From assembly GCA_021413865.1 (NCBI GenBank), contig JAIOPN010000004.1, positions 1 to 64,000 on the forward strand: a DNA stretch of 64,000 nt, read 5' to 3'. Shown in pieces: positions 9,870 to 20,287 of the stretch (position 1 is the first letter of the stretch; each line of letters begins with the position of its first letter). The notes beneath the pieces are model-generated. The model was given only the letters and a program-made list of their open reading frames with translations. It was not told where the DNA came from and did no database searches. The position numbers were made by a program, and so were the translations under genes. The stretch is from Planctomycetota bacterium. Its GTDB lineage: Bacteria; Planctomycetota; Phycisphaerae; Phycisphaerales; Phycisphaeraceae.

Positions 9870-11939
9870 ATGCAAAAGATCATGCTCGCCCTGAGCTTGC
9901 TCCTGGCGTGCGTCCTACCGCTCCATGCCGAGCCTCCCGCCAAGGCGATCGGGTTGTCTGAGGCATTGTCCGCCGTGCCCGCGAACCTGAGGACGCCTAA
10001 TCGTTGGGCGCTGGTGATTGGGGCCAGTGCGTACCAGGACAAGCGGATCCCTCAGCTGCCGGCGTGCGCGAACGATGCCAAAGCCCTTGCCGCGGTGCTG
10101 AGCGATCCGGGGATCGGGATGTTCCCGCCCGACCACGTCACGCTACTGGTGAACGACCAGGTGACGCGGGACAAGGTGGTGGCGGCATTGGACGACCTGG
10201 GCCGGCACGCCGGGAAGGATGATCTGGTCCTGGTGTTCTTCTCGGGTCACGGCGCCACGGACGAGAAGGGCCGTGCCTACTGGGTGATGGGGAACACCCA
10301 GGTGGACCAGTTGCGTGCCACGGCCGTGCTTGAAGCGGACGTCACGGAACTCCTGAGCGAAATCAAGACGACACGCCTGGTGACGCTGATCGACGCCTGC
10401 TACTCGAGGGCGACGGCCAACCTGGGTCAGTCCAAGAGCCTGCTGGACCTCTCGAAGATCTACCCTGAGTTCAAGGGCGACGGCCGCATCGCGATGACGG
10501 CGAGCAAGGGGGATCAACTGAGCGTGGTGATCAGAGATGCCAAGAGCCCCGGGCTGGGTTATAGCGCGTTCGCCTGGCACGCGATCCAGGGGATCAAGGG
10601 CGAAGCGGACGGAGACGGTGACGGGGTGATCACGGTCGATGAGTTGTGGGGGTATGTGAAGGACCGGACGGAGGAGACGGCGAGGAGAGAGGGCGGCAAC
10701 CAGGAGCCGCAGCTCAAGGGGCAGTTCGGCAGCAAGTTCCTGCTGGCGGTCAACGCCGAGCACCTTCGTCGCAGTATGGCGGAGACGGCCACGGCGCGTG
10801 AGCTGCGGGAGAAGCGGCTGGCGTCGCTGAAGCAACTGGCGTTAAACCACAAGATCACGGTGGACCAGTTCGGTCTTGGCGAACGGCTCATCACGACCCT
10901 CGAATCCGACATGGACGAGTTCGACCGCCGGCGTCTGGTTGAATTCGCGGCGTTGCTGGACAACCGTCTGGCGCCCGAGAAGCTCCAGATAGCCCTGGAC
11001 CTGATCGAGACGCCCACCCAGCGTGAGGCACGGCTGGCGCGTGAGGCGGCCGAACTTGCCGCGCGCCAGAAACAATCGCGGATCGCCCAACTGCTGGCGA
11101 CGGCCAAAACCAACGACAACAAGGAACACGGCCAGGCCGCGTTAGCGGCGTTGGACGAGCTGCTCACCCTCGCCCCCGGGCACGCTGAAGCCGGGGCGCT
11201 GCGTGAGAAGATCGGGGCGTACTACGGCCCGCGGACGCTCACGAACTCGATCGGAGCGAAATTAGTCGAGATCAGGGCGGGTGAGTTCCTGATGGGGAGC
11301 CCGGCCGGCGAGGAGGGACATACCTCAGGCGAAACGCAGCACAAGGTGCAGATCGCCCGTCCGTTCATGATGGGTGTGACGGAAGTGACGCAGGCACAGT
11401 GGCGAGCGGTGATGGGGAATAACCCCAGTCGTTTCAAGGGTGACGACCTACCGGTTGAGCAGGTGTCGTGGGAGGACGCGCAGGAGTTCTGCCGGAAGTT
11501 GAGTGAGAAGGAGGGGAAGAAATATCGTCTGCCGACGGAGGCGGAGTGGGAGTACGCGTGCCGAGCGGGGACGGGCGAGGCGTTCGGGGGCACGGGGAAT
11601 CTGGACGATATGGGTTGGTCTGGCGACAATTCGGGTCGTTCGCGTCTGGACTCGCAGCGGCTGTGCGATACAGTCTCAGGCAACTATATCTCAAGGCTGG
11701 AAGGCAACGGGAACCAGACGCATCCGGTGGGTCAGAAACGGGCCAACGCCTGGGGTTTGTACGACATGCACGGGAACGTGTGGGAGTGGTGCGAGGACAA
11801 GTATGACGCCACGTCCCGTGTGATGCGGGGCGGCTCGTGGTGCATCTTTCCCCGCGACTGCCGGTCTGCGTACCGCAACTGGGGCGCGCCCGGCACCCGG
11901 AGCTGCAGCATCGGGTTCCGGCTCGTGCTGGACTTCTGA
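9870..11939 (+). CDS. Secreted caspase-like protease with C-terminal SUMF1/FGE domain (DGR variable protein)
   Basis: A 689-residue protein with a signal peptide (residues 1-20, ending LPLHA) followed by a caspase/C14 domain (about 40-300). The catalytic dyad is visible as His127 in FFSGHGA and Cys177 in LIDACYS. An EF-hand-like loop DGDGDGVITVDE (247-258) follows. A helical linker (about 310-450) leads to a SUMF1/formylglycine-generating-enzyme-type domain (about 465-689: IRAGEFLMGSP, VTEVTQAQWRAVMG, RLPTEAEWEYACRAG, DMHGNVWEWCED). The last 41 residues are the variable repeat of a DGR, so the C-type-lectin-like surface is the diversified ligand-binding face. The sensor-plus-protease architecture suggests a conflict or recognition function, which is inference. 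Confidence 0.85.
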   Translation: MQKIMLALSLLLACVLPLHAEPPAKAIGLSEALSAVPANLRTPNRWALVIGASAYQDKRIPQLPACANDAKALAAVLSDPGIGMFPPDHVTLLVNDQVTRDKVVAALDDLGRHAGKDDLVLVFFSGHGATDEKGRAYWVMGNTQVDQLRATAVLEADVTELLSEIKTTRLVTLIDACYSRATANLGQSKSLLDLSKIYPEFKGDGRIAMTASKGDQLSVVIRDAKSPGLGYSAFAWHAIQGIKGEADGDGDGVITVDELWGYVKDRTEETARREGGNQEPQLKGQFGSKFLLAVNAEHLRRSMAETATARELREKRLASLKQLALNHKITVDQFGLGERLITTLESDMDEFDRRRLVEFAALLDNRLAPEKLQIALDLIETPTQREARLAREAAELAARQKQSRIAQLLATAKTNDNKEHGQAALAALDELLTLAPGHAEAGALREKIGAYYGPRTLTNSIGAKLVEIRAGEFLMGSPAGEEGHTSGETQHKVQIARPFMMGVTEVTQAQWRAVMGNNPSRFKGDDLPVEQVSWEDAQEFCRKLSEKEGKKYRLPTEAEWEYACRAGTGEAFGGTGNLDDMGWSGDNSGRSRLDSQRLCDTVSGNYISRLEGNGNQTHPVGQKRANAWGLYDMHGNVWEWCEDKYDATSRVMRGGSWCIFPRDCRSAYRNWGAPGTRSCSIGFRLVLDF
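11814..11939 (+). repeat. DGR variable repeat 1 (VR1)
   Basis: These 42 codons align without gaps to 16689-16814. They differ at 22 bases in 16 codons; 21 differences fall in codon positions 1 or 2, and the only third-position change is CCC/CCT. Variable codons such as TGC/GAC, ATC/GAC, TTT/GAT, TAC/CGC, AAC/GCC, TGG/GGG and TGC/ATC are what mutated AAC, AAT and AGG template codons give. The last 9 codons including the stop are identical and GC-rich, like an initiation-of-mutagenic-homing (IMH) site. Confidence 0.85.
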
Positions 11940-12008
11940 ATAGCCCTTTGCCCTTTGCTCTTGGGTTTTTCTGATCTTGCCCACCGAGCGGAGCGAGGTC
12001 TTCGGAAA
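11940..12008 (+). repeat. Sequence shared downstream of both variable repeats
   Basis: About 65 bases after the VR1 stop codon reappear after VR2 (16815-16895). They comprise a CCCTTTGC-type run followed by a segment around CCGAGCGGAGCGAGG that ends TCTTCGGAAAA. Flanking TTTTCTGA and TCGGAAAA can pair as an 8-bp stem with one G-U pair. Conservation of a structured element just 3' of VR fits a DGR retrohoming accessory structure. In VR2 the 14-base TTTGCCCTTTGCTC unit is present twice. Confidence 0.55.
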
Positions 12009-12122
12009 AAAATCAGGCTGGTGTATTTCGGTCTGCGTAGGGGCTTTCTTGCGGCGACGTGTGGCCATCCCTGTCCGTTCGGCGTGGTAGCGTGCCGCGG
12101 GGTCATTTCAGGAGTCTGGGTG

Positions 12123-13466
12123 ATGCGAATTGGATTCCTCCGTGTCCTCCTGCTGATTGCTTTGCTGACGCCGGCGGCCCAGGCCGGCGACGGTGTGGCA
12201 GCCCCCGCCCCACGGGCTGAACCCTCCAAAGCGATCGGGCTGTCGGAGGCGTTGTCCGCGTTACCTCCGGGGGTGCAGACACCTAATCGCTGGGCCTTGG
12301 TGATCGGCGCCAGTGCGTACCAGGACAAGCGGATCCCGCAGCTTCCGGCCTGCGCCAATGACGCCCGGGCTCTGGCCGGGGTCTTGGTGGATTCCAGCGT
12401 GGGCATGTTCCCCGTGGACCATGTGACGGTGTTGGTGGACGGCGACGTGACGGCCGTGAAGGTCAAGGATGCGCTGGATGAGCTGAGCCGCCACGCGGGC
12501 CCCAGCGACCTGGTGGTGGTGTTTTTCAGCGGCCACGGGGCGACAGACGACAAGGGCCGGGCGTTCTGGGTGATGACCGACACGCAGATTGACAAGCTGC
12601 GTGCCACAGCGCTGCCCGAGACGGACGTGAGTGAGCTGCTGGGCGAGGTCAAGACAACACGCCTGGTGACGCTCATCGACGCCTGCTACTCGGCGTCGAC
12701 TGCGAACCTGGGGCAGAGCAAGAGCCTGCTCGATCTGAAGGCGATCTTCCCGCAGTTCCAGGGGGATGGCCGTGTTGCGCTGACGGCGAGCAAGGGAGAC
12801 CAGTTGAGTGTGGTGATCCACGAGAAGAACGAGGCGGGCTATGGCTACTCGGCGTTCGCCTGGCACGTGATCGAAGGTCTCAAGGGTGGGGCGGACGGCG
12901 ATGCCGACGGCGTGGTGACGGTGGATGAACTGTGGAACCATGTGAAGGACCGGACGGAGGAGACGGCGCGCCGGCAGGGAGGCAACCAGCAGCCGCAGTT
13001 GAAGGGCCAATTCGGCAGTAAGTTCCTGCTGGCGGTCAACGCGAAGAAGCTGATGGAGAAGGCTAAAACAGTGGAGGCGGGTAAGGCGCAGACGGTGAAG
13101 CGTGTCGGGACGCTCAAGCAGTTGTTCGCCGACGACAAGATCGCGGCCGAGCAGCTCAGGGAAGGCCGGCGTGTGCTGGAGACCCCCGAGGATCAGCTAG
13201 ACGAGCAGGACGTGCAGCGGAAGCAGATATACGCGGACTTGGCCGACGGCGGGCTCAAGCCCAGTTACCTCCAAGGCGCGTTGGACAAGGTCGAGACGCC
13301 CGAGCAGCGCACAGCACGCTTGGCGCGTGAGGCGGCGCAGCGTGCGGAAGCCGAGCGTCAGGCGAAAGAGGCGGTGGAGCGGGCGCGTCAGGCTGAACTA
13401 GATCGCCAGAGGCAAGTGCGGGTCACTACGGTTCAGCACGCGAAAGACTCACCGATTCTCTCATAG
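12123..13466 (+). CDS. Secreted caspase-like protein (paralogue 2, C-terminus disrupted)
   Basis: A 447-residue protein from an ATG at 12123; the frame is open upstream, but this start gives a proper signal peptide (MRIGFLRVLLLIALLTPAAQA). The caspase domain closely matches the upstream gene: shared IGLSEALSA and NRWALVIGASAYQDKRIPQ, His138 in FFSGHGA, Cys188 in LIDACYS and a calcium-loop DGDADGVVTVDE. A linker TLKQLFADDKIAAEQL and an Ala/Glu/Arg-rich coiled coil follow. It then ends abruptly; just past the stop another frame reads EPGTK, a tail motif seen in the related fragment and in the Sel1 protein. The original tail was therefore lost to a frameshift and the adjoining IS5 fragment. Confidence 0.8.
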   Translation: MRIGFLRVLLLIALLTPAAQAGDGVAAPAPRAEPSKAIGLSEALSALPPGVQTPNRWALVIGASAYQDKRIPQLPACANDARALAGVLVDSSVGMFPVDHVTVLVDGDVTAVKVKDALDELSRHAGPSDLVVVFFSGHGATDDKGRAFWVMTDTQIDKLRATALPETDVSELLGEVKTTRLVTLIDACYSASTANLGQSKSLLDLKAIFPQFQGDGRVALTASKGDQLSVVIHEKNEAGYGYSAFAWHVIEGLKGGADGDADGVVTVDELWNHVKDRTEETARRQGGNQQPQLKGQFGSKFLLAVNAKKLMEKAKTVEAGKAQTVKRVGTLKQLFADDKIAAEQLREGRRVLETPEDQLDEQDVQRKQIYADLADGGLKPSYLQGALDKVETPEQRTARLAREAAQRAEAERQAKEAVERARQAELDRQRQVRVTTVQHAKDSPILS

Positions 13467-13562
13467 AACCTGGTACTAAGATCGGGAAGGGGTCACCGGG
13501 ATCTCTGAATAACCCGTACTAACTCCTCTCCGCCCCGCGCTGAAGTGGCAAAGGAGCCTGCG

Positions 13563-14009
13563 ATGGAACGCAAGAGCCAAGCCCCGACGCTGATCGACGC
13601 GGTGATTCACGACATCGGCGACCCCAATATGACGGCCAGGCTGGATCAACTCGACCGGGCGGTGCCCTGGGCCAAGCTGGCGGCGCCGATCCAGGCGACC
13701 TACGGCAACGCCACCAACGTCGGCGGCCGTCCCAACGTGCCGGTGGAGATGATGTTCAAGGTCATGATGCTGCAGAAGTGGTTCAACCTCGGCGACGCCA
13801 TGGCCGAGGGCATGCTCCGCGACCGCATCAGCTTCCGCAGGTTCCTGGGCATGGGCCTGAGCGACGACGTGATCGACGAGATCTCGCTGGTGCGTTTCCG
13901 CGCCCGGCTGCGCGGGCACGGGCTGACGGCGGGTCTGTTCGACGCGGTGGCCACGCACCTGAGGGAGGCGGGCCTGATCGTCAACGAGGGCACGCTGGTG
14001 CCCATCGGT
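13563..14009 (+). pseudogene. IS5-family transposase, N-terminal fragment
   Basis: About 149 residues match the N-terminal (DUF772-type) part of IS5-group transposases: LDRAVPWAKLAAPIQATYG, RPNVPVEMMFKVMMLQKWFNL, DAMAEGMLRDRISFRRFLG, DEISLVRFRARLRGHGL and LREAGLIVNEGTLV. At about 14009 the transposase sequence ends and the frame runs on into the antisense of a caspase-like tail, so the catalytic DDE part is missing. The insertion lies just after the broken end of caspase paralogue 2 and abuts an inverted caspase fragment. This suggests IS-linked rearrangement. Confidence 0.7.
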
Positions 14010-14747
14010 CTCAACATCCCCACCAAACCTTCTTGCTACGTCACGTGGCGTGGATGCAACGTTCCCGGGATCAGACGCGGCGACATTAGCATCCACCTTC
14101 GTCCCCGGTTCGCTTGGTTTGGTCGCCGAACTGCCGGTTTCATCCGGATGTCCACCCAGCATTCTAGCAACGTCATGGGGGGTAGTATGGCTCCCTCCGC
14201 CCATTGGGTCACCATCCCAGACGGGGTCTGGCACGGAGATCCGTGTTTGCTTCTGTTGATCCAGCTCCGCCTGACGGGATCGCTCCGCCGCCTCTCGCGC
14301 CTGACGCTCCGCTTCTGCACGCTGGGTGGCCTCACGCGCCAGGCGGGTGTCACGCTGCTCCAGCGTTTCCACCTTGTCCAGCGCGGCCTGGAGGTAGTTG
14401 GGGGCTAGGCGGGCGTCGGCCAGGTCGGCGTAGATCTGCTTCCGCTGCACGTCCTGCGCGTCGAGCTGGTCCTCGGGCGTCTCCAGCACACGCCGGCCTT
14501 CCCTCAGCTGTTCGGCCGCGATCTTGTCGTCGGCGAACAACTGCTTGAGCGCTGTCACTCGCTTCACCGTCTGCGCCTTATTAGCCTCCGCCGTTTTCGC
14601 CTTCTCCATCAGCTTCTGCGCGTTGACCGCCAGCAGGAACTTGCTCCCGAACTGGCCCTTGAGCTGCGGCTGCTGGTTGCCGCCCTGGCGGCGCGCCGTC
14701 TGCTCTGTCCGGTCCTTCACGTGGTTCCACAGCTCGTCCACCGTCAC
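14010..14747 (-). pseudogene. Inverted caspase-like paralogue 3, C-terminal fragment
   Basis: The minus strand encodes the region after the caspase core: VTVDELWNHVKDRTEQTARRQGGNQQPQLKG, FGSKFLLAVNAQKLMEKAK, LKQLFADDKIAAEQLREGRRVLETPEDQLD. It is nearly identical to paralogue 2 (12123-13466). It starts inside the EF-hand-like loop, so the protease domain is gone. Unlike paralogue 2 it keeps a tail with two TP[HR]DVAR[MR][LF]GG repeats and SEPGTKVDANVAASDPG. It ends by running into antisense IS5 sequence. The orientation is opposite to its paralogues. The fragment is not expected to be functional. Confidence 0.75.
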
Positions 14748-15056
14748 CTCGCCAACCCGACCACTGCGTGGGTCATCATGTCGGCCCGAGCGACGAAAAC
14801 CTCTCGACGGACCCGGCTCGCGGCGTTACGCTATGCAAAATGGTCGGCGACGTTCGCTGGCCAAGCGCCAACTGGGAAATCTGTGTTGAGCGGACAAAGC
14901 CATCACTCCCGCAACCGCCAGATGCGGCTGCGTGCCGTCGTGCACAATATCATGGTTGTGCTATTCCAACGGAGGTTTGCGACAGAGCACTCCTGACCCC
15001 TTTTATTCGCCGTCCGGAATCAAATTTCCTATCAGACAAACCCAGTTCGGAGAACC
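14748..15056. other. Spacer upstream of the Sel1 gene, no gene seen
   Basis: About 309 bases between the broken caspase fragment and the Sel1-repeat gene. No frame has both a plausible start and a natural protein composition. The last 60 bases are AT-richer than the neighbourhood and should hold the promoter of the Sel1 gene, but I see no clear -35/-10 pair. Confidence 0.4.
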
Positions 15057-16325
15057 ATGATGAAGCTTCAGCGACCGTTGGCCGTATCTGCGTTGATGAT
15101 CGCTGTCTGCCTTGCCATATCCGGTATAGCGCATGCAGAGGGCCCTGCCAGCAAACCCGCCAACAAGGCACGGCTGCAGGCACTGGCCGGGAAGATCGAT
15201 GACGAGTCTGGCTTCACGGCTGGAGTATTTGGCGAACTGAGTGCATATCTAGCGAAGGTGGACGCAAACGACGCACGGACCAAAGAAGTGGTGGAAGCGT
15301 GTGATGCATTTATCGCAGGTGATTTGAAACCGAAGTACTTCTTGCTGGTGATCAGGCCGGTAATCAGTGAACCGGGGTCAAAGGTGGATAGTAAGGTCGT
15401 CGCGACTGATCCCGACAAACGGAATGGTGACACAAATGCCGGAGGAACTACCCCCAATGACAATTTAACTTCGATATTGGCGGAACTTGCCCCGCAGGCT
15501 GATTCCGAAGTAAGAGAGAGTGGACTGCGGCCTGTATCTTCTGATCCTGCCGACGCGAAGACGGCTCCAACGGGCGATGCCCATCCGATAACACATCCCG
15601 CGGTCCAGGGCACCATGAACGACCTCCGTCAAACCGTCCTTGAGGACATACGCGCGGCGAGTTCCAATCCCGGCGAGACCCGCACGAAGCACGAGAAAGC
15701 TGCTGAGAAGGGAGACTCCGAAGCGCAGTACCAGATGGGCTTGAGTTATGTCAAGGAAGAGGATGGTGTACCGCAAATCGATGCAGAGGGCCTCGAATGG
15801 CTTCAACGGGCGGCGAAGAAAGGTGGCGCGAAGGTGCATTTTGCATTAGCGTCCCTGCTCCTTATCGACGGAATGAAAAACGCTGCCTACGGGGATGAAT
15901 CCAAGTCGAGGGAATTGCTTCTTCAGGCCGCCGAGAGTTTCGCACGGACCGGTGAGGAGCAATCGGCCGTTATGGCGTCGGGTTTTTTTTCGAATAAAGA
16001 TTTATGCAACGATGGCGCAAAAGCGGTCGAAGTGATCCGCCCTTTCGCGGAAAAAGGCGGTAAGCTGGCCATGACAGAGTTGGGCCGGCTCTACACCATT
16101 CCCCAGTGGCAAAAATCCCAACCTGACTACGCGGTGGCGGCTCGCTGGTTCCGGAAGAGTGCCGACGCGGACGATAGAACGGCCATGTATTTCCTTGGCC
16201 GGATGTACGAACTGGGCTTGGGCGTGGAGAAGAGCAATACAATCGCCCGCGAGTTGATGGATCGAGCCGCTAAAGAGCCTCATGGCCTTGCCGAGGCCAA
16301 AATGTGGATTCTAGCCCATGACTAA
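15057..16325 (+). CDS. Secreted Sel1-repeat protein sharing modules with the caspase-like proteins
   Basis: A 422-residue protein with a signal peptide (about residues 1-27, ending IAHA). Residues about 38-100 (ARLQALAGKIDDESGFTAG through DLKPKYFLLVI) resemble the linker after the caspase domains of the two upstream paralogues. Residues about 107-121 (SEPGSKVDSKVVATDP) match SEPGTKVDANVAASDP in the inverted caspase fragment. The C-terminal half has Sel1/TPR-like repeats (EKGDSEAQYQMGLSYVKEEDG, LEWLQRAAKKGGAKVHFAL, WFRKSADADDRTAMYFLGRMYELGLG), which usually mediate protein contacts. Its base composition is less GC-rich than its neighbours. It may be a partner of the caspase-like proteins; that is inference. 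Confidence 0.75.
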   Translation: MMKLQRPLAVSALMIAVCLAISGIAHAEGPASKPANKARLQALAGKIDDESGFTAGVFGELSAYLAKVDANDARTKEVVEACDAFIAGDLKPKYFLLVIRPVISEPGSKVDSKVVATDPDKRNGDTNAGGTTPNDNLTSILAELAPQADSEVRESGLRPVSSDPADAKTAPTGDAHPITHPAVQGTMNDLRQTVLEDIRAASSNPGETRTKHEKAAEKGDSEAQYQMGLSYVKEEDGVPQIDAEGLEWLQRAAKKGGAKVHFALASLLLIDGMKNAAYGDESKSRELLLQAAESFARTGEEQSAVMASGFFSNKDLCNDGAKAVEVIRPFAEKGGKLAMTELGRLYTIPQWQKSQPDYAVAARWFRKSADADDRTAMYFLGRMYELGLGVEKSNTIARELMDRAAKEPHGLAEAKMWILAHD

Positions 16326-16436
16326 TAGTCCCACATTTCCCATATGACTTTCCGAGTTTGATAGAACCGATGAGCGTTTGAGGCCGTAATTCATGGTGTT
16401 CTGCGCATCTCCGCACCACCATGGAAGGCCCACCCA

Positions 16437-16814
16437 ATGGGTGAAGCACGCAAGGAAGCGTTGAAGCTCGGTTTTGACGGCTCAGTCCGGCTGGAGTTTT
16501 GCGGTGCGACGGTCAGCAGCGACGGCGGGCTTCTGCCGTACCGCGATCTGGACGATGCCCTGGGATTGACCGCGCCGGCCGGTGCGGCGCTGACCGATGG
16601 GCGTACCGGGACCAACATCCGCCACTCGCTGTACGACATGCACGGCAACGTGTACGAGTGGTGCGAGGACATGTACTCCGACGGAGCGTCCCGTGTGTTG
16701 CGGGGCGGCTCGTGGGACGACGATCCTCGCGGCTGCCGGTCTGCGCGCCGCGCCGGGGACGCGCCCGTCAACCGGGGCATCGGCTTCGGGTTCCGGCTCG
16801 TGCTGGACTTCTGA
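16437..16814 (+). pseudogene. Chimera of IS1380-type transposase start and DGR-variable SUMF1 end
   Basis: This 125-residue open frame joins two unrelated pieces. Residues 1 to about 62 are the start of an IS1380-family transposase (LEFCGATVSSDGGLLPYRDLDDALGLT, then LTDGRTGTNIRH). From about residue 63 it is the end of a SUMF1/FGE domain (LYDMHGNVYEWCEDMY, SRVLRGGSW, IGFGFRLVLDF) that parallels the end of the caspase-SUMF1 protein. The original variable protein has therefore lost its N-terminal part to the IS-linked junction at about 16620. Its last 42 codons are VR2. The avd and reverse-transcriptase genes follow directly, so this was probably the DGR's resident target. Confidence 0.75.
16689..16814 (+). 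repeat. DGR variable repeat 2 (VR2)
   Basis: This repeat is colinear with VR1 at 11814-11939 (126 bases each). Substitutions cluster in codons 4, 10-13, 15, 20, 22-24, 27, 28 and 30-33, and codons 34-42 are identical. VR2 has acidic or small residues (Asp, Asp, Asp, Gly, Arg, Ala, Gly, Asp) where VR1 has Cys, Ile, Phe, Asp, Tyr, Asn, Trp, Gly. That is a real change of the predicted binding surface with no change in frame or length. Confidence 0.85.
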
Positions 16815-16897
16815 ATAGCCCTTTGCCCTTTGCTCTTTTGCCCTTTGCTCTTGGTTTTTCTGATCTTTCCCACCGAGCGGAGCGAGGTCTTCGGAAA
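16815..16897 (+). repeat. Second copy of the VR-downstream element
   Basis: This copy corresponds to 11940-12008. It has an additional copy of the short CCCTTTGCTCTT unit and then the same CCGAGCGGAGCGAGG core with flanking TTTTCTGA and TCGGAAAA arms. It lies between VR2 and the avd reading frame, the usual place of the retrohoming structure. Confidence 0.5.
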
Positions 16898-16927
16898 ATT
16901 TTTGGCCGCGGAGTTTTCCACGACGCC

Positions 16928-17274
16928 ATGCAGCCCGAACTCAAAGTCATCTCGGACTTCTACGACTTCATGCTGTACCTCATCCAGCGGATCGAGAAGT
17001 TCCCGCGGCACCACCGCTACTCCCTGGGGATCGCGATGGAGAACCGGCTGCAGACCATCCTGGGCCTGCTGATCCGCGCCCGCTACAGCTCCGACAAGCA
17101 GGCATGGCTTGACGACGCGAACATCGAGCTGGATATCCTGCGCTTCCAGGTGCGGCTGGCGACGGACCTCAAGGCCATGGCGGTCAACAGCCAGGGCCAC
17201 GCCGTGAAGCTGATGCAGGGCGTCGGCGCGCAGATCGGGGGCTGGTCAAGTCGCTCAAGGGGGCGCAGGCGTGA
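16928..17274 (+). pseudogene. avd: DGR accessory protein Avd, frameshifted
   Basis: From the ATG at 16928 the frame encodes a helical protein like the Avd/four-helix-bundle accessory protein of DGRs, which binds the reverse transcriptase and template RNA: VISDFYDFMLYLIQRIEKFPRHHRYSLGIAMENRLQTILGLL, then LDILRFQVRLATDLKAM and GVGAQIGGW. After that Trp (about 17244) the frame departs from the family. Restoring four bases (a second CTGG) would give LVKSLKGAQA and a stop at 17272-17274, for 116 residues, the expected size. A slipped CTGG CTGG repeat is the simplest explanation. The restored stop would overlap the GTG of the reverse-transcriptase frame. Confidence 0.75.
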
Positions 17275-17676
17275 AGCGGTACGGCCAACTCTGGGACAAG
17301 CTCATCGCCTGGGACAACTTGACCCTGGCGGCCGGGAAGGCGCAGCGCGGCAAGCGCGGGCGGCCGGCGGTGCTGGCCTTCAACTTCGCCCGGGAGTTCG
17401 AGCTGATGCGGCTGGAGGCCGAGTTGCATAAGGGCACGTATATTCCGGGGGCGTTCCGCTCGCACTGGATCGCCCGCCCCAAGCCGAGGATGATCTCGGC
17501 GGCGCCCTACCGCGACCGGGTCGTCCACCACGCGCTCATGAACGTCTTTGAGCCGATCCTGGAGCTCCATTTCCACCCCCACAGCTACGCCTGCCGCCGC
17601 GGCAGGGGCACGCACGCGGCGGCGGACCGGCTGCAACACCTGATGCGCGGTCACGCCTACGCCCTGCAGTGCGACA
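17271..17676 (+). pseudogene. DGR-type reverse transcriptase, truncated
   Basis: About 135 residues from a GTG at 17271 match the start of DGR/group II-like reverse transcriptases: KRYGQLWDKLIAWDNL, AQRGKRGRPAVLAFNF, ELHKGTYIPGAFRSHWI, KPRMISAAPYRDRVVHHALMNVFEPI, the SYACRRGRGTHAAADRL segment and YALQCD. At that point, just before the first catalytic Asp region, the sequence switches to a DnaB-like helicase in another frame. The fingers and the YxDD palm motif are absent, so no polymerase activity is possible. The template repeat, often found beside the RT gene, was not seen and may have been deleted with the RT 3' end. Confidence 0.8.
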
Positions 17677-17680
17677 CCCG

Positions 17681-18514
17681 ATGGTCGACCGGCTCGAAGC
17701 GGGCGAACCGGCGGCCGTCGGCCTCGACACGGGAATCCCGAGCCTCGACGCCATCACGGGCGGACTCAAGCCCGGCAACCTTATTGTCATCGGTGCACCG
17801 CCGAGCGCCGGCAAGACGGCGCTGGCGACGGGGATCGCGCAGCACGCCGCCGTCAGCCGCCAGCGTGGTGTGCATTTCCTGACCCTCGAAATGACCACCG
17901 CCGAGATGCAGCGTCGCGCGCTGTCGCGGCTGTCGGGTGTGTCGATGCACCGGATGGACCGGCCCGACGGCCTCAGCGTCGCCGCGATACAGAACCTGCG
18001 CGCCGCCGCCGACGCGCTCCAGGACGCGCCGTTGTACCTGGATGAGTGCGCCGGATTGACCGTCGGATCGTTGCGGTCACGGGTTCGACGCGAGGCGGCA
18101 CGACACGATATCGGCCTCGTGGTCGTCGATTACCTGCAACTCATCGCCGGCTCGGGTTCGGGGCGGGAGAATAGAAATAACGAGGTCGCGGAAATCTCCC
18201 GTGCCGTCAAGGTGCTGGCGTCGAAACTGGAAGTCCCGGTCCTGTTGCTCTCACAATTGAACCGCGTGTCGCGCGGAGAAGCCCGGCGTCCGCAACTGCA
18301 TGACCTGCGCGACTCGGGCGCTATCGAACAGGACGCCGACATCGTGATCCTGTTGCACAGCGAGGACTACGCCCATCGTGGCGATCCCGGCCACACGTTC
18401 ACCGGGGATACCGACCTGATCGTCGCCAAAAACCGCAACGGACCTACCGGGGTAGCGCGCGTGGCGTTCGATCCGGAGCGGGCGAGCTTTACTGACATGG
18501 AGGTCGCACATTGA
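17681..18514 (+). CDS. DnaB-like replicative helicase, C-terminal RecA-type domain
   Basis: A 277-residue ATPase domain of the DnaB family: LDTGIPSLDAITGGL, Walker A GAPPSAGKTAL, FLTLEMTTAEMQRRAL, Walker B LVVVDYLQLI, SQLNRVSRGE and the DLRDSGAIEQDADIVILLHS motif. The DnaB N-terminal (primase-interacting) domain is missing because the gene begins at the junction with the truncated reverse transcriptase. A GTG at 17669 in frame is an alternative start. The gene overlaps the next by 4 bases and belongs to the helicase-small protein-XRE-integrase module of the element. It could act in element replication or be a dead remnant. Confidence 0.7.
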   Translation: MVDRLEAGEPAAVGLDTGIPSLDAITGGLKPGNLIVIGAPPSAGKTALATGIAQHAAVSRQRGVHFLTLEMTTAEMQRRALSRLSGVSMHRMDRPDGLSVAAIQNLRAAADALQDAPLYLDECAGLTVGSLRSRVRREAARHDIGLVVVDYLQLIAGSGSGRENRNNEVAEISRAVKVLASKLEVPVLLLSQLNRVSRGEARRPQLHDLRDSGAIEQDADIVILLHSEDYAHRGDPGHTFTGDTDLIVAKNRNGPTGVARVAFDPERASFTDMEVAH

Positions 18515-18798
18515 GCCGCCGCACCGCCAACCCCGAGCTGATCGAACCCGTCGCCCGTCGCATCCTCGAGCGCGCCAGGCCGACCACCACGCCGTCGGAC
18601 CGCCCCGTGTACGTCGTGAGGCTCGGGCCCGCGCCCGGCGTCGATCCCGTGCTCAGCCTCCGCCATGCCCTGAAATACGCCGACCGCACCTGCGGCCTGC
18701 GGGCGATCGCCGAACGGGATATCCCGCTGAGGGCGACCGAGGGCAAGGAAAGTGTTGCTATGCGGAAACTACATCGGTACAATGGCTCGCATGAGTGA
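18511..18798 (+). CDS. Small conserved element protein
   Basis: A 95-residue product starting at TTG overlapping the helicase stop (TTGA). The central part VYVVRLGPAPGVDPVLSLRHALKYADRTCGLRAI resembles a small protein repeatedly found in planctomycete integrative elements, with a VRLxPxPG....LRxxLKxxxRxxGLR pattern. I recall the family but know no function for it. The 4-base overlap with the helicase gene argues for translational coupling. The 3' end overlaps the promoter of the XRE gene. Confidence 0.55.
   Translation: MSRRTANPELIEPVARRILERARPTTTPSDRPVYVVRLGPAPGVDPVLSLRHALKYADRTCGLRAIAERDIPLRATEGKESVAMRKLHRYNGSHE
18755..18783 (+). promoter_or_regulatory. Promoter of the first XRE gene (leaderless arrangement)
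   Basis: TTGCTA (18755-18760) and TACAAT (18778-18783) are spaced by 17 bases, close to the sigma-70 consensus. The XRE start codon at 18791 lies 7 bases after the -10 box, where transcription would begin. The mRNA would therefore be leaderless or nearly so. Confidence 0.6.
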
Positions 18799-19009
18799 AA
18801 TACTCGACACCCTGCGGCGGATGATCCGTGAGAGCGGGCGGACCATCAGCGACATCGCTGACGCCGCCGACGTGAACAAGTCCATGTTGTCCAAGCTGAT
18901 GAATCACAAGGTTGGGCTGAACGTGGAGAGCGTGGAGCGTGTGGTCAAGGCGCTGGGCGGCAGGATCAAGATCAAAACCGTCACCGAACCGGGCAAACGG
19001 AGCAAGTGA
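18791..19009 (+). CDS. XRE-family HTH regulator of the element
   Basis: A 72-residue DNA-binding protein: MSEILDTLRRMIRESGRTISDIADAADVNKSMLSKLMNHKVGLNVESVERVVKALG is a complete Xre/Cro helix-turn-helix, followed by a basic tail. Upstream in-frame ATGs at 18752 and 18782 lie in or beside the -10 promoter region, so the start at 18791 is chosen. It precedes the integrase by 3 bases on the same strand, so it probably represses its own promoter and hence integrase expression. The same XRE-then-integrase order occurs in the second element at 60558-60767. Confidence 0.8.
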   Translation: MSEILDTLRRMIRESGRTISDIADAADVNKSMLSKLMNHKVGLNVESVERVVKALGGRIKIKTVTEPGKRSK

Positions 19010-19012
19010 AAC

Positions 19013-20287
19013 ATGGCCAGCATCAGCACAAGCAAAAGCGGAGCGCGCCGAATCATGTTCTTCGACGCCGGCGGCAAGCGCCGGACGCTCTACCTGGGCA
19101 ATGTGAGCAAGGCCGACGCCCAGGGCGTGCGCGTCAAGGTCGAGGCACTGGCCGATGCGCAGTTGCTCCATCAGGCCCCGTTGCGTGAGGTAACGCTGTG
19201 GCTCAAGGGGCTGGACAGCGTGTTCTATGACAGGCTGGCCGCCGTGGGGCTGGCCGAGCCGCGCCACTGTGCGTTGCTCGGGCCGTTCATCGACGAATAC
19301 ATCGCCGGCCGCACCGACCTAAAGCCGGGCACGCTGGCTGTGATGAAGCAAGGGCGCGACGGCCTGGTGGATCACTTCGGCGCTCAACGCCGCATGGACA
19401 GCATCACTCCCGGCGAGGCGGACGGCTGGCGGTTGAAGATGCTGGCGGAAAAGTATTCCGAGGCGACGGTTCGGAAGCGCACACAGGTTGCCAAGCAGGT
19501 CTATCGTGCCGCGATCCGTAGTCGGCTGGTGGAGTCCGACCCCTTTGCCGACCTGCCCAGCGGGAGCCGCGAGAACCGGGAGCGGCTGCGGTTCATCGAC
19601 ACCGCGACGATCGGCAAGGTGTTGGACGCCTGCCCCGATGACCAGTGGCGATTGATCGTGCTGCTGTGCCGTTACGGGGGCGTCCGTTGCCCCAGCGAGG
19701 TCATGCCGCTGACATGGGCGGACATCGACTTCCACACCCGCACCATCCGCATTACGTCGCCCAAGACGGCGCACCACGAGGGAAAGGGCGAACGGACCAT
19801 CCCGCTGTTCGCCGAGCTTGCAAAGCCTCTACAGGCCGCCTTCGACGCCGCGCCCGAGGGGAGCGAGCACGTCGTCACCAAGTACCGCCACGGCAACGCG
19901 AACCTGAGGTCACAATTTGAGCGGATCATCGCGCGGGCCGGCGTGACGGTGTGGCCCAAGCCGTTCCACAACCTGCGGGCGTCGCGGGAGACGGAACTAT
20001 GCGCCACGTTCCCGTTGCACGTCGTCGTCGGCTGGATCGGCAACACCGCCAAGATCGCCGCCAAGCACTACCTCACCACGACCCCGGCGGACATGACGGC
20101 GGGGGCGGACTTCGGCGCGACGCAGAATCCGACGCAGAACACGACGGAACAGGTAGGAACAGGCGGGAGCACAGAAAACGCGCCCGTGAGCGTATCCGCT
20201 ACAAATACCGGGGAAAGCCTGGAAATCACGGTCGGCGCGGAGACGTGCGAAACTGCGGGAATGGGAGCACCAGGATTCGAACCTTGA
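19013..20287 (+). CDS. Tyrosine recombinase/integrase of island 1
   Basis: A 424-residue integrase. An N-terminal arm and SAM-like core-binding domain occupy about residues 80-185. The catalytic domain shows Arg in YGGVRCPSEV, Lys in SPKTAHHEGKGERTIPL, His-x-x-Arg in FHNLRASRE, a Trp (VVGWIGN) at the position often occupied by the second His, and the nucleophile Tyr in AAKHYLTT. The C-terminal tail (TQNPTQNTTEQ) is low-complexity and ends in GMGAPGFEP, encoded by the attachment repeat itself. Integration thus happens at the 3' end of the gene. It is co-transcribed with the XRE gene. Confidence 0.92.
   Translation: MASISTSKSGARRIMFFDAGGKRRTLYLGNVSKADAQGVRVKVEALADAQLLHQAPLREVTLWLKGLDSVFYDRLAAVGLAEPRHCALLGPFIDEYIAGRTDLKPGTLAVMKQGRDGLVDHFGAQRRMDSITPGEADGWRLKMLAEKYSEATVRKRTQVAKQVYRAAIRSRLVESDPFADLPSGSRENRERLRFIDTATIGKVLDACPDDQWRLIVLLCRYGGVRCPSEVMPLTWADIDFHTRTIRITSPKTAHHEGKGERTIPLFAELAKPLQAAFDAAPEGSEHVVTKYRHGNANLRSQFERIIARAGVTVWPKPFHNLRASRETELCATFPLHVVVGWIGNTAKIAAKHYLTTTPADMTAGADFGATQNPTQNTTEQVGTGGSTENAPVSVSATNTGESLEITVGAETCETAGMGAPGFEP
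20261..20279 (+). repeat. Right island attachment repeat
   Basis: This is an exact 19-base copy of 6648-6666 within the last codons of the integrase gene. Read on the minus strand with its neighbours it gives GGTTCGAATCC and the acceptor end TGCTCCCA of a tRNA, but no cloverleaf can be completed from the adjoining bases. It marks the right end of the island; ordinary chromosomal genes begin 80 bases later. Confidence 0.75.

Follow-up and report, generated by a model that had tools for sequence, protein, structure and literature searches.

Probable remnant of a diversity-generating retroelement with a caspase-SUMF1 target in a Phycisphaeraceae genome

We studied a stretch of 64,000 nucleotides (here called the window; contig JAIOPN010000004.1) from a genome of the family Phycisphaeraceae, G000 in our set, in which a preliminary description had placed a decayed diversity-generating retroelement (DGR) with a caspase-SUMF1 protein as a target. 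Considered as a whole, the region is very probably the remnant of a DGR which diversified the SUMF1 end of a caspase-like protease. It carries the 3' ends of two genes for SUMF1 (lectin-fold) domains, one of them a surviving caspase-SUMF1 fusion, and judging by their sequences these ends differ as copies of an adenine-mutagenised template would differ. A complete relative, with variable repeats (VRs), the accessory gene Avd, a reverse transcriptase (RT) and a template repeat (TR), was found in a metagenome-assembled genome of the same family, called G015 below; numbers preceded by L denote loci. The window copy is made up of the following parts.

9870 to 11939, forward strand: target gene 1, bearing VR1; caspase (Peptidase_C14), helical linker and SUMF1/FGE protein with a signal-like N-terminus (Pfam C14 and FGE-sulfatase)
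11805 to 11939, forward strand: VR1, with which target gene 1 closes at its 3' end (11813-11930 align to the G015 TR)
11940 to 12009, forward strand: pyrimidine-rich tract and GGA-loop hairpin after VR1, a candidate homing signal (C+T 0.78 in the best 40 nt; 5 pairs and two G-A)
16437 to 16629, forward strand: start of a DDE transposase replacing the 5' part of target gene 2 (DDE_Tnp_1_4, 5.6e-8, slightly below the Pfam cut-off)
16630 to 16814, forward strand: orphan SUMF1 C-terminus with VR2 at 16680-16814 (FGE profile positions 176-254)
16815 to 16898, forward strand: tract rich in pyrimidines that follows VR2, with a GGA-loop hairpin (best 40 nt at C+T 0.85; 5-pair hairpin as at VR1)
16928 to 17260, forward strand: Avd-like gene with a frame change near its 3' end (PF22296, bAvd, 8e-19; 64% identity to G015 Avd)
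17271 to 17681, forward strand: residues 1-137 of a DGR-type RT, which lacks its catalytic part (66% identity to residues 1-137 of the G015 RT, P0001)
17682 to 18514, forward strand: DnaB-like helicase, N-terminally truncated, where the 3' half of the RT (and the TR, in cassettes of the G015 type) would be expected (DnaB_C, 8e-77)

Target gene 1 matched the caspase domain with E=8e-16 and the FGE/SUMF1 domain with E=5e-46 in Pfam. The two frames had been described as SUMF1 genes ending in repeats followed by Avd-like and RT frames, and most of this description stands: VR1 and VR2 belong to a repeat of 158 nt, 84% identical, and the bAvd match (16910-17272) and the RT piece follow in that order. 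The second frame (16437-16814), nevertheless, retains only the final ~61 residues of the SUMF1 domain behind the transposase start, and the similarity to RTs stops at about 17681, the remainder of that frame being part of another gene. RVT_1 scored only E=0.004 in the frame 17271-17879, under the Pfam cut-off; the RT assignment is firm on comparison with the RTs of relatives, the identity over an equal length reaching 72% with that of L060. The Avd frame departs from its homologue after the residues GAQIGGW and extends beyond the homologue's end.

The origin of the two gene ends was evaluated by projecting the G015 TR onto the window. In the 118 alignable columns VR1 and VR2 showed 22 differences, 21 of which were located at template adenines, so that 21/29 adenine columns differed against 1/89 of the rest (P=9e-16); three more differences lie just upstream of the part aligned to the TR and fall outside this comparison. 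When the templates of ten loci were used in turn the adenine bias was seen with all ten, P being 4e-16 for G015, 9e-15 for L138 and, at its weakest, 0.004 for L067, whose template alignment reaches only 51%. The full 135 nt contain 25 differences, split 12/11/2 between codon positions 1, 2 and 3, while the neighbouring caspase paralogues, gap-free over 778 nt, displayed 57/25/102, as in paralogues under purifying selection. Because of the bias towards template adenines and of this third-position-dominated control, we attribute VR1 and VR2 to adenine mutagenesis and not to plain duplication, and the adenine-mutagenised copying proposed in the preliminary description is thereby sustained. Moreover, non-adenine columns of the VRs differ less (1/89) than the 46 nt upstream (4/46, P=0.046), a weak hint that would fit repeated overwriting by the template. 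Set against the templates of relatives, both are variable repeats at the 3' end of lectin-fold genes with changes restricted to adenines.

A relative with an intact RT and a template repeat, whose search the preliminary description had recommended, was obtained from G015. The Avd family had matches in 21 of 51 genomes of the family, 3 of them above the Pfam cut-off (the window's genome counting among both the 51 and the 3), and the RT piece of the window matched in 8 of 61 genomes, its own included; G015 was prominent in both scans. Its contig C95 (4823 bases), which starts inside a VR, contains that VR end, Avd, a full RT and the TR, in that order. The RT includes the stretches IGNLTSQ and YCDD, which we take to be the signature of DGR RTs, and its best solved relative is 8ub7, presumably the RT of the BPP-1 DGR. 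Within G015 the TR matched five sites, itself and four VRs, and comparison of these VRs with the TR revealed differences in 64/116 cells at template adenines against 3/343 other cells; G015 thus has the RT, the Avd, the TR and the VRs with adenine-specific changes that define a DGR. Two of the VR genes are complete and both are caspase-SUMF1 fusions (L056:2770-4536 and L057:5268-7097), carrying by Pfam a GYF_2 insert in one case and a PEGA insert in the other; the remaining two are cut by contig ends, one of them being SUMF1. In all, contigs C95, C1 and C36 (L042, L056, L057) hold six caspase-domain (C14) genes, several with GYF_2 or PEGA inserts, along with four VRs and one TR. These sequences show that caspase fusions of G015 have had their SUMF1 tip diversified at adenines, and the window bears a matching footprint.

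Within the class, 26 of 397 genomes had a match to the full G015 RT with E no higher than 1e-30. A contig scan with this RT, in which the match in JAFIFY010000035.1 was 100% identical, confirmed 112 stretches, of which the best 80 were kept, and a TR/VR finder was applied to 89 of 115 loci, namely these 80 genome loci and, from the 35 viral loci, the first 9. Raw pairs were detected in 62 of the 80 genome loci and in 70 of the 89 overall. The pair in L071 was evidently an artefact of a palindrome, and some of the other pairs were weak; filtering left 68 loci, 67 of which yielded 91 target frames. Caspase domains were present in 8 of the 91 frames and 5 of the 67 loci, the latter a rough count since the reading frame is probably wrong for some of those at contig ends: Gemmataceae L070 (two frames), Synechococcales L080, Candidatus Venteria L101 (three; presumably a gammaproteobacterium), Nostoc L108 and Amazonocrinis L120. 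All eight frames have both caspase and SUMF1 domains by Pfam. G015 is counted among the 67 loci, but its caspase targets sit on other contigs. Further caspase-SUMF1 fusions were seen in Nostoc L114, where no TR was detected, and as a third copy in L070, where no VR was detected. An in-house caspase profile was built from seven proteins of the window and G015 and is circular for those; the caspase matches on which we rely were checked with Pfam, except for L081, L084 and a 391-residue frame of L070. On these domain assignments caspase-SUMF1 is a recurring minority target of DGRs in Planctomycetota, Cyanobacteria and Ca. Venteria, and the caspase-SUMF1 fusion as a DGR target, put forward in the preliminary description, is supported both in the window and by relatives for which RT and TR are present.

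In the 3' flanks of VRs (loci L058-L137; 11940-12009 and 16815-16898 in the window) we observed CTTTGC-like units that form a pyrimidine-rich tract, and in many cases a GNA-loop hairpin comes next; the pattern distinguishes VRs from TRs of this RT clade in the counts below. At least 85% C+T in a 40-nt stretch was reached by 31/82 VR flanks, 0/82 TR flanks and 0.2% of random stretches, each TR flank being tallied once per VR (60 distinct flanks, none above the threshold). A GNA-loop hairpin of at least 6 pairs was detected after 25/82 VRs, in 2/82 TR flanks (one TR counted twice) and in 34/4100 random stretches. These thresholds were set after viewing the sequences, and the tract with its hairpin may be a mark that distinguishes VR from TR. 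Of the window VRs only VR2 attains the 85% mark, and the hairpin of both, ACCGAGC(GGA)GCGAGGT, with 5 Watson-Crick pairs and two G-A, stays below the 6-pair limit of the survey; in G015 the VR C1a has no such hairpin and C1b only a 5-pair one far downstream. Passages of PMC3240598 report that homing in BPP-1 is efficient only with a hairpin of this sort. The BPP-1 DGR has Avd and RT in common with the window, where the hairpins after the VRs are candidate counterparts of its own: BPP-1 and the compared phage DGRs have stems of 7-10 bp and 4-nt GRNA loops, whereas the loops in the window read as 3 nt (GGA). Among the matches listed in the open-access literature, no title dealt with a pyrimidine-rich tract linked to DGRs.

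The closest solved sequence relative of the protein encoded at 9870-11939 is Treponema denticola variable protein 1 (2y3c, 3e-21), which is like it over the SUMF1 part; it is a 294-residue chain whose best-matching stretch falls in the SUMF1 part (487-547) and not in the caspase part. The structure model resembles paracaspase and metacaspase structures, with a mean predicted local distance difference test score (pLDDT) of 63.7 that is good for the caspase part only; residues 565-681, which include most of VR1, are below 50, hence no reading of the VR surface was drawn from it. His127 and Cys177, which we take to be the caspase catalytic dyad, are invariant in 11 of 11 aligned caspase-SUMF1 proteins, so that alignment and model together indicate the fold and the dyad of a caspase-like peptidase (C14). 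The caspase domain also contains an EF-hand-like DGDGDGVITVDEL loop at 10602-10649 (Pfam EF-hand_5, E=0.034, below the cut-off), and similar loops are present in L108 and L120; calcium control of the caspase through this loop is possible. Signal-like N-termini, assigned by eye, were observed in the window protein, L070 and L101, and were not found by eye in the caspase-SUMF1 proteins of G015, L080, L108 and L120.

In a live system the SUMF1 tip would be a surface for ligand binding that changed rapidly, with the caspase domain as its effector: a ligand from a surface or an invader, bound outside the cytoplasm, would switch on cleavage, this site being suggested because of the signal-like sequence. 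The surviving gene in the window would now encode a protease of fixed specificity. Alternatively, the tip would not trigger the protease but bring it to changing substrates or surfaces, and diversification would then alter which proteins are cleaved. We regard this as possible, though rather unlikely; section 7 of PMC7517822 poses both options for kinase variable proteins, and the long helical linker predicted in the window protein, with low to moderate confidence, would suit either.

Whichever way the protein acted, the copy in the window is a remnant of a DGR and not a DGR, because the complete RT and the TR are missing; the Avd is recognisable, and the decay seen in the preliminary description is borne out. 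Everything in the RT past residue 137 is lost, including the catalytic motif, and roughly the first third is kept. When G000 (67 contigs) was searched with the G015 RT only the truncated piece matched and the 3' half was not found, the G015 TR had no match, and a 271-nt query with VR1 matched, apart from its own position, only VR2 and a piece of 38 nt on C6, without a TR. Damage also affects target gene 2, which has lost its front, and the Avd. As assembled, the copy reads as dead, and VR1 should now be frozen because the RT is without its catalytic part, no template was found and the front of target gene 2 is lost. Among the best 80 of at least 597 relatives of the DnaB protein 5 were set aside as open-ended, and 64 of the remaining 75 have at least 80 residues ahead of the DnaB start in the window; since most relatives extend further upstream, the junction of RT and DnaB probably cuts both genes. 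The lost TR probably lay just after the RT, because the gap of 113 nt between VR2 and Avd leaves little room; the TR follows the RT directly in G015, L060 and L062, and among the 68 filtered loci it lies downstream of the RT in 48, upstream in 17 and in an unclear position in 3.

The junction could equally have come about by deletion, by recombination or as an assembly join. In the last case the loss of RT and TR would be apparent and the organism would have an intact DGR which the assembly missed, a proposal we consider improbable: VR repeats can break assemblies, as with contig C95 of G015, G000 is 95% complete in its 67 contigs, and RT and DnaB are both cut at about one point; against it, neither the RT 3' half nor the TR turned up elsewhere in those contigs, and target gene 2 and the Avd are damaged away from the junction. 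Resumption of the RT elsewhere after an insertion was rejected, no 3' half having been found in G000.

G000 has a single RVT_1 match, G000:C11:35713-36159 (L002), which is a DRT8-like RT (PADLOC, 4e-157), a candidate anti-phage RT; a second DGR RT in this genome was accordingly rejected. That a DGR at another site of this genome continues to diversify the locus in trans is therefore very improbable, the G015 RT and TR searches pointing the same way, even though both VRs retain the downstream tract and hairpin, and remote variable proteins are reported for cyanobacterial DGRs in passages of PMC7517822. Finally, it is hardly credible that VR1 and VR2 arose by ordinary duplication of gene ends, without any retroelement in their past: the locus does hold other duplicated pieces (the caspase copies) and the similarity runs beyond the stop codons, but the bias to template-adenine columns recurs with every template and 23 of the 25 differences are at codon positions 1 and 2, the reverse of the pattern in the caspase paralogues, so that the duplication by which the preliminary description could have been refuted did not account for the data.

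Several points weigh against a DGR remnant with an exported caspase sensor. The adenine comparison uses templates from other genera, the window's own template being missing, and the loss of RT and TR depends on the completeness of the G000 assembly. The upstream TR of 17/68 loci, including the close RT relatives L138 and L070, makes the place of the lost TR less than certain. Two of the three caspase copies in the window have no SUMF1 domain, and 62 of the 67 loci yielded no caspase target within the locus, thus the RT clade is not tied to caspases. The targets of G015 and of the cyanobacteria are without a signal-like start, so that an exported sensor would not be a family-wide trait; protease activity, export and ligand binding of the window protein are predictions from its sequence.

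Between and beyond these parts the locus comprises other genes.

12123 to 13466, forward strand: second caspase gene with a signal-like N-terminus (Pfam C14, 5e-18), in which Pfam gave no FGE/SUMF1 match
13545 to 14033, forward strand: N-terminal part of a transposase (DUF772, Pfam 1e-18), interrupting the array
14238 to 14756, reverse strand: inverted fragment of a third caspase paralogue (516-nt inverted repeat, 85%; protein match 14616-14756)

An inverted repeat of 49 nt, 84% identical (14066-14114 and 15366-15414), connects a signal-bearing Sel1-repeat gene (15057-16325) to the inverted caspase fragment at its tail; a linker domain common to the caspases and the Sel1 protein is not claimed, as BLASTP gave nothing and a forced alignment is not evidence. 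Adjoining the dead RT, the truncated DnaB, a helix-turn-helix protein and a tyrosine recombinase stand in series (17669-20287) and are probably another mobile element; the term integrative island, used in the preliminary description, has this nearby recombinase (PF00589) as its sole ground.

The type of system is already known from cyanobacteria. Passages of PMC7517822 describe orthocaspase-like peptidase domains in cyanobacterial DGR variable proteins in which, as in the window, a caspase-type peptidase is joined to a diversified C-terminal lectin-fold domain, and the cyanobacterial loci L080, L108 and L120 of our set related to the G015 RT show this arrangement; the window copy differs from the systems of those passages by its Phycisphaeraceae genome, its signal-like start and its decay. 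Our additions are the other lineage, the signal-like start and the multi-caspase array of G015. Among the papers listed from the open-access literature no title or abstract start described a DGR-linked pairing of caspase and sensor in planctomycetes, and in PMC8144416 the terms used brought up Planctomycetes only twice, in passing. Parts of PMC10907252 argue that DGR targets are antigen sensors, cytoplasmic or periplasmic, mention one target with a caspase-like CHAT domain and name filamentous planctomycetes among the hosts of related DGRs. The systems of Thiohalocapsa and other multicellular bacteria treated there are alike in that their FGE/CLec sensors are coupled to a peptidase or another effector, but those loci centre on STAND or MoxR/vWA/VMAP parts whereas the protease of the window lies within the same chain; none of the MoxR, vWA, VMAP and STAND families turned up among the few selected neighbours scanned. 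Excerpts of PMC7159879 tie DGRs to nucleoside triphosphate (NTP)-dependent conflict systems.

A hypervariable sensor and a death-type protease are thus combined in one polypeptide outside the cyanobacteria, where the pairing is published. A single template in G015 acts on several caspase targets and its adenine specificity is near-perfect, so that population reads could measure the diversification directly, and the window copy shows what is left of such a system after its death. We suggest tentatively, holding it to be somewhat less than an even prospect, that DGRs supply Planctomycetota with a repertoire of caspase-type proteases, in which one template rewrites the tips of several caspase-SUMF1 genes per array and the products are exported in some lineages (the window, Gemmataceae L070). 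If so, this would be an anticipatory, antibody-like protease repertoire, and the window its fossil.

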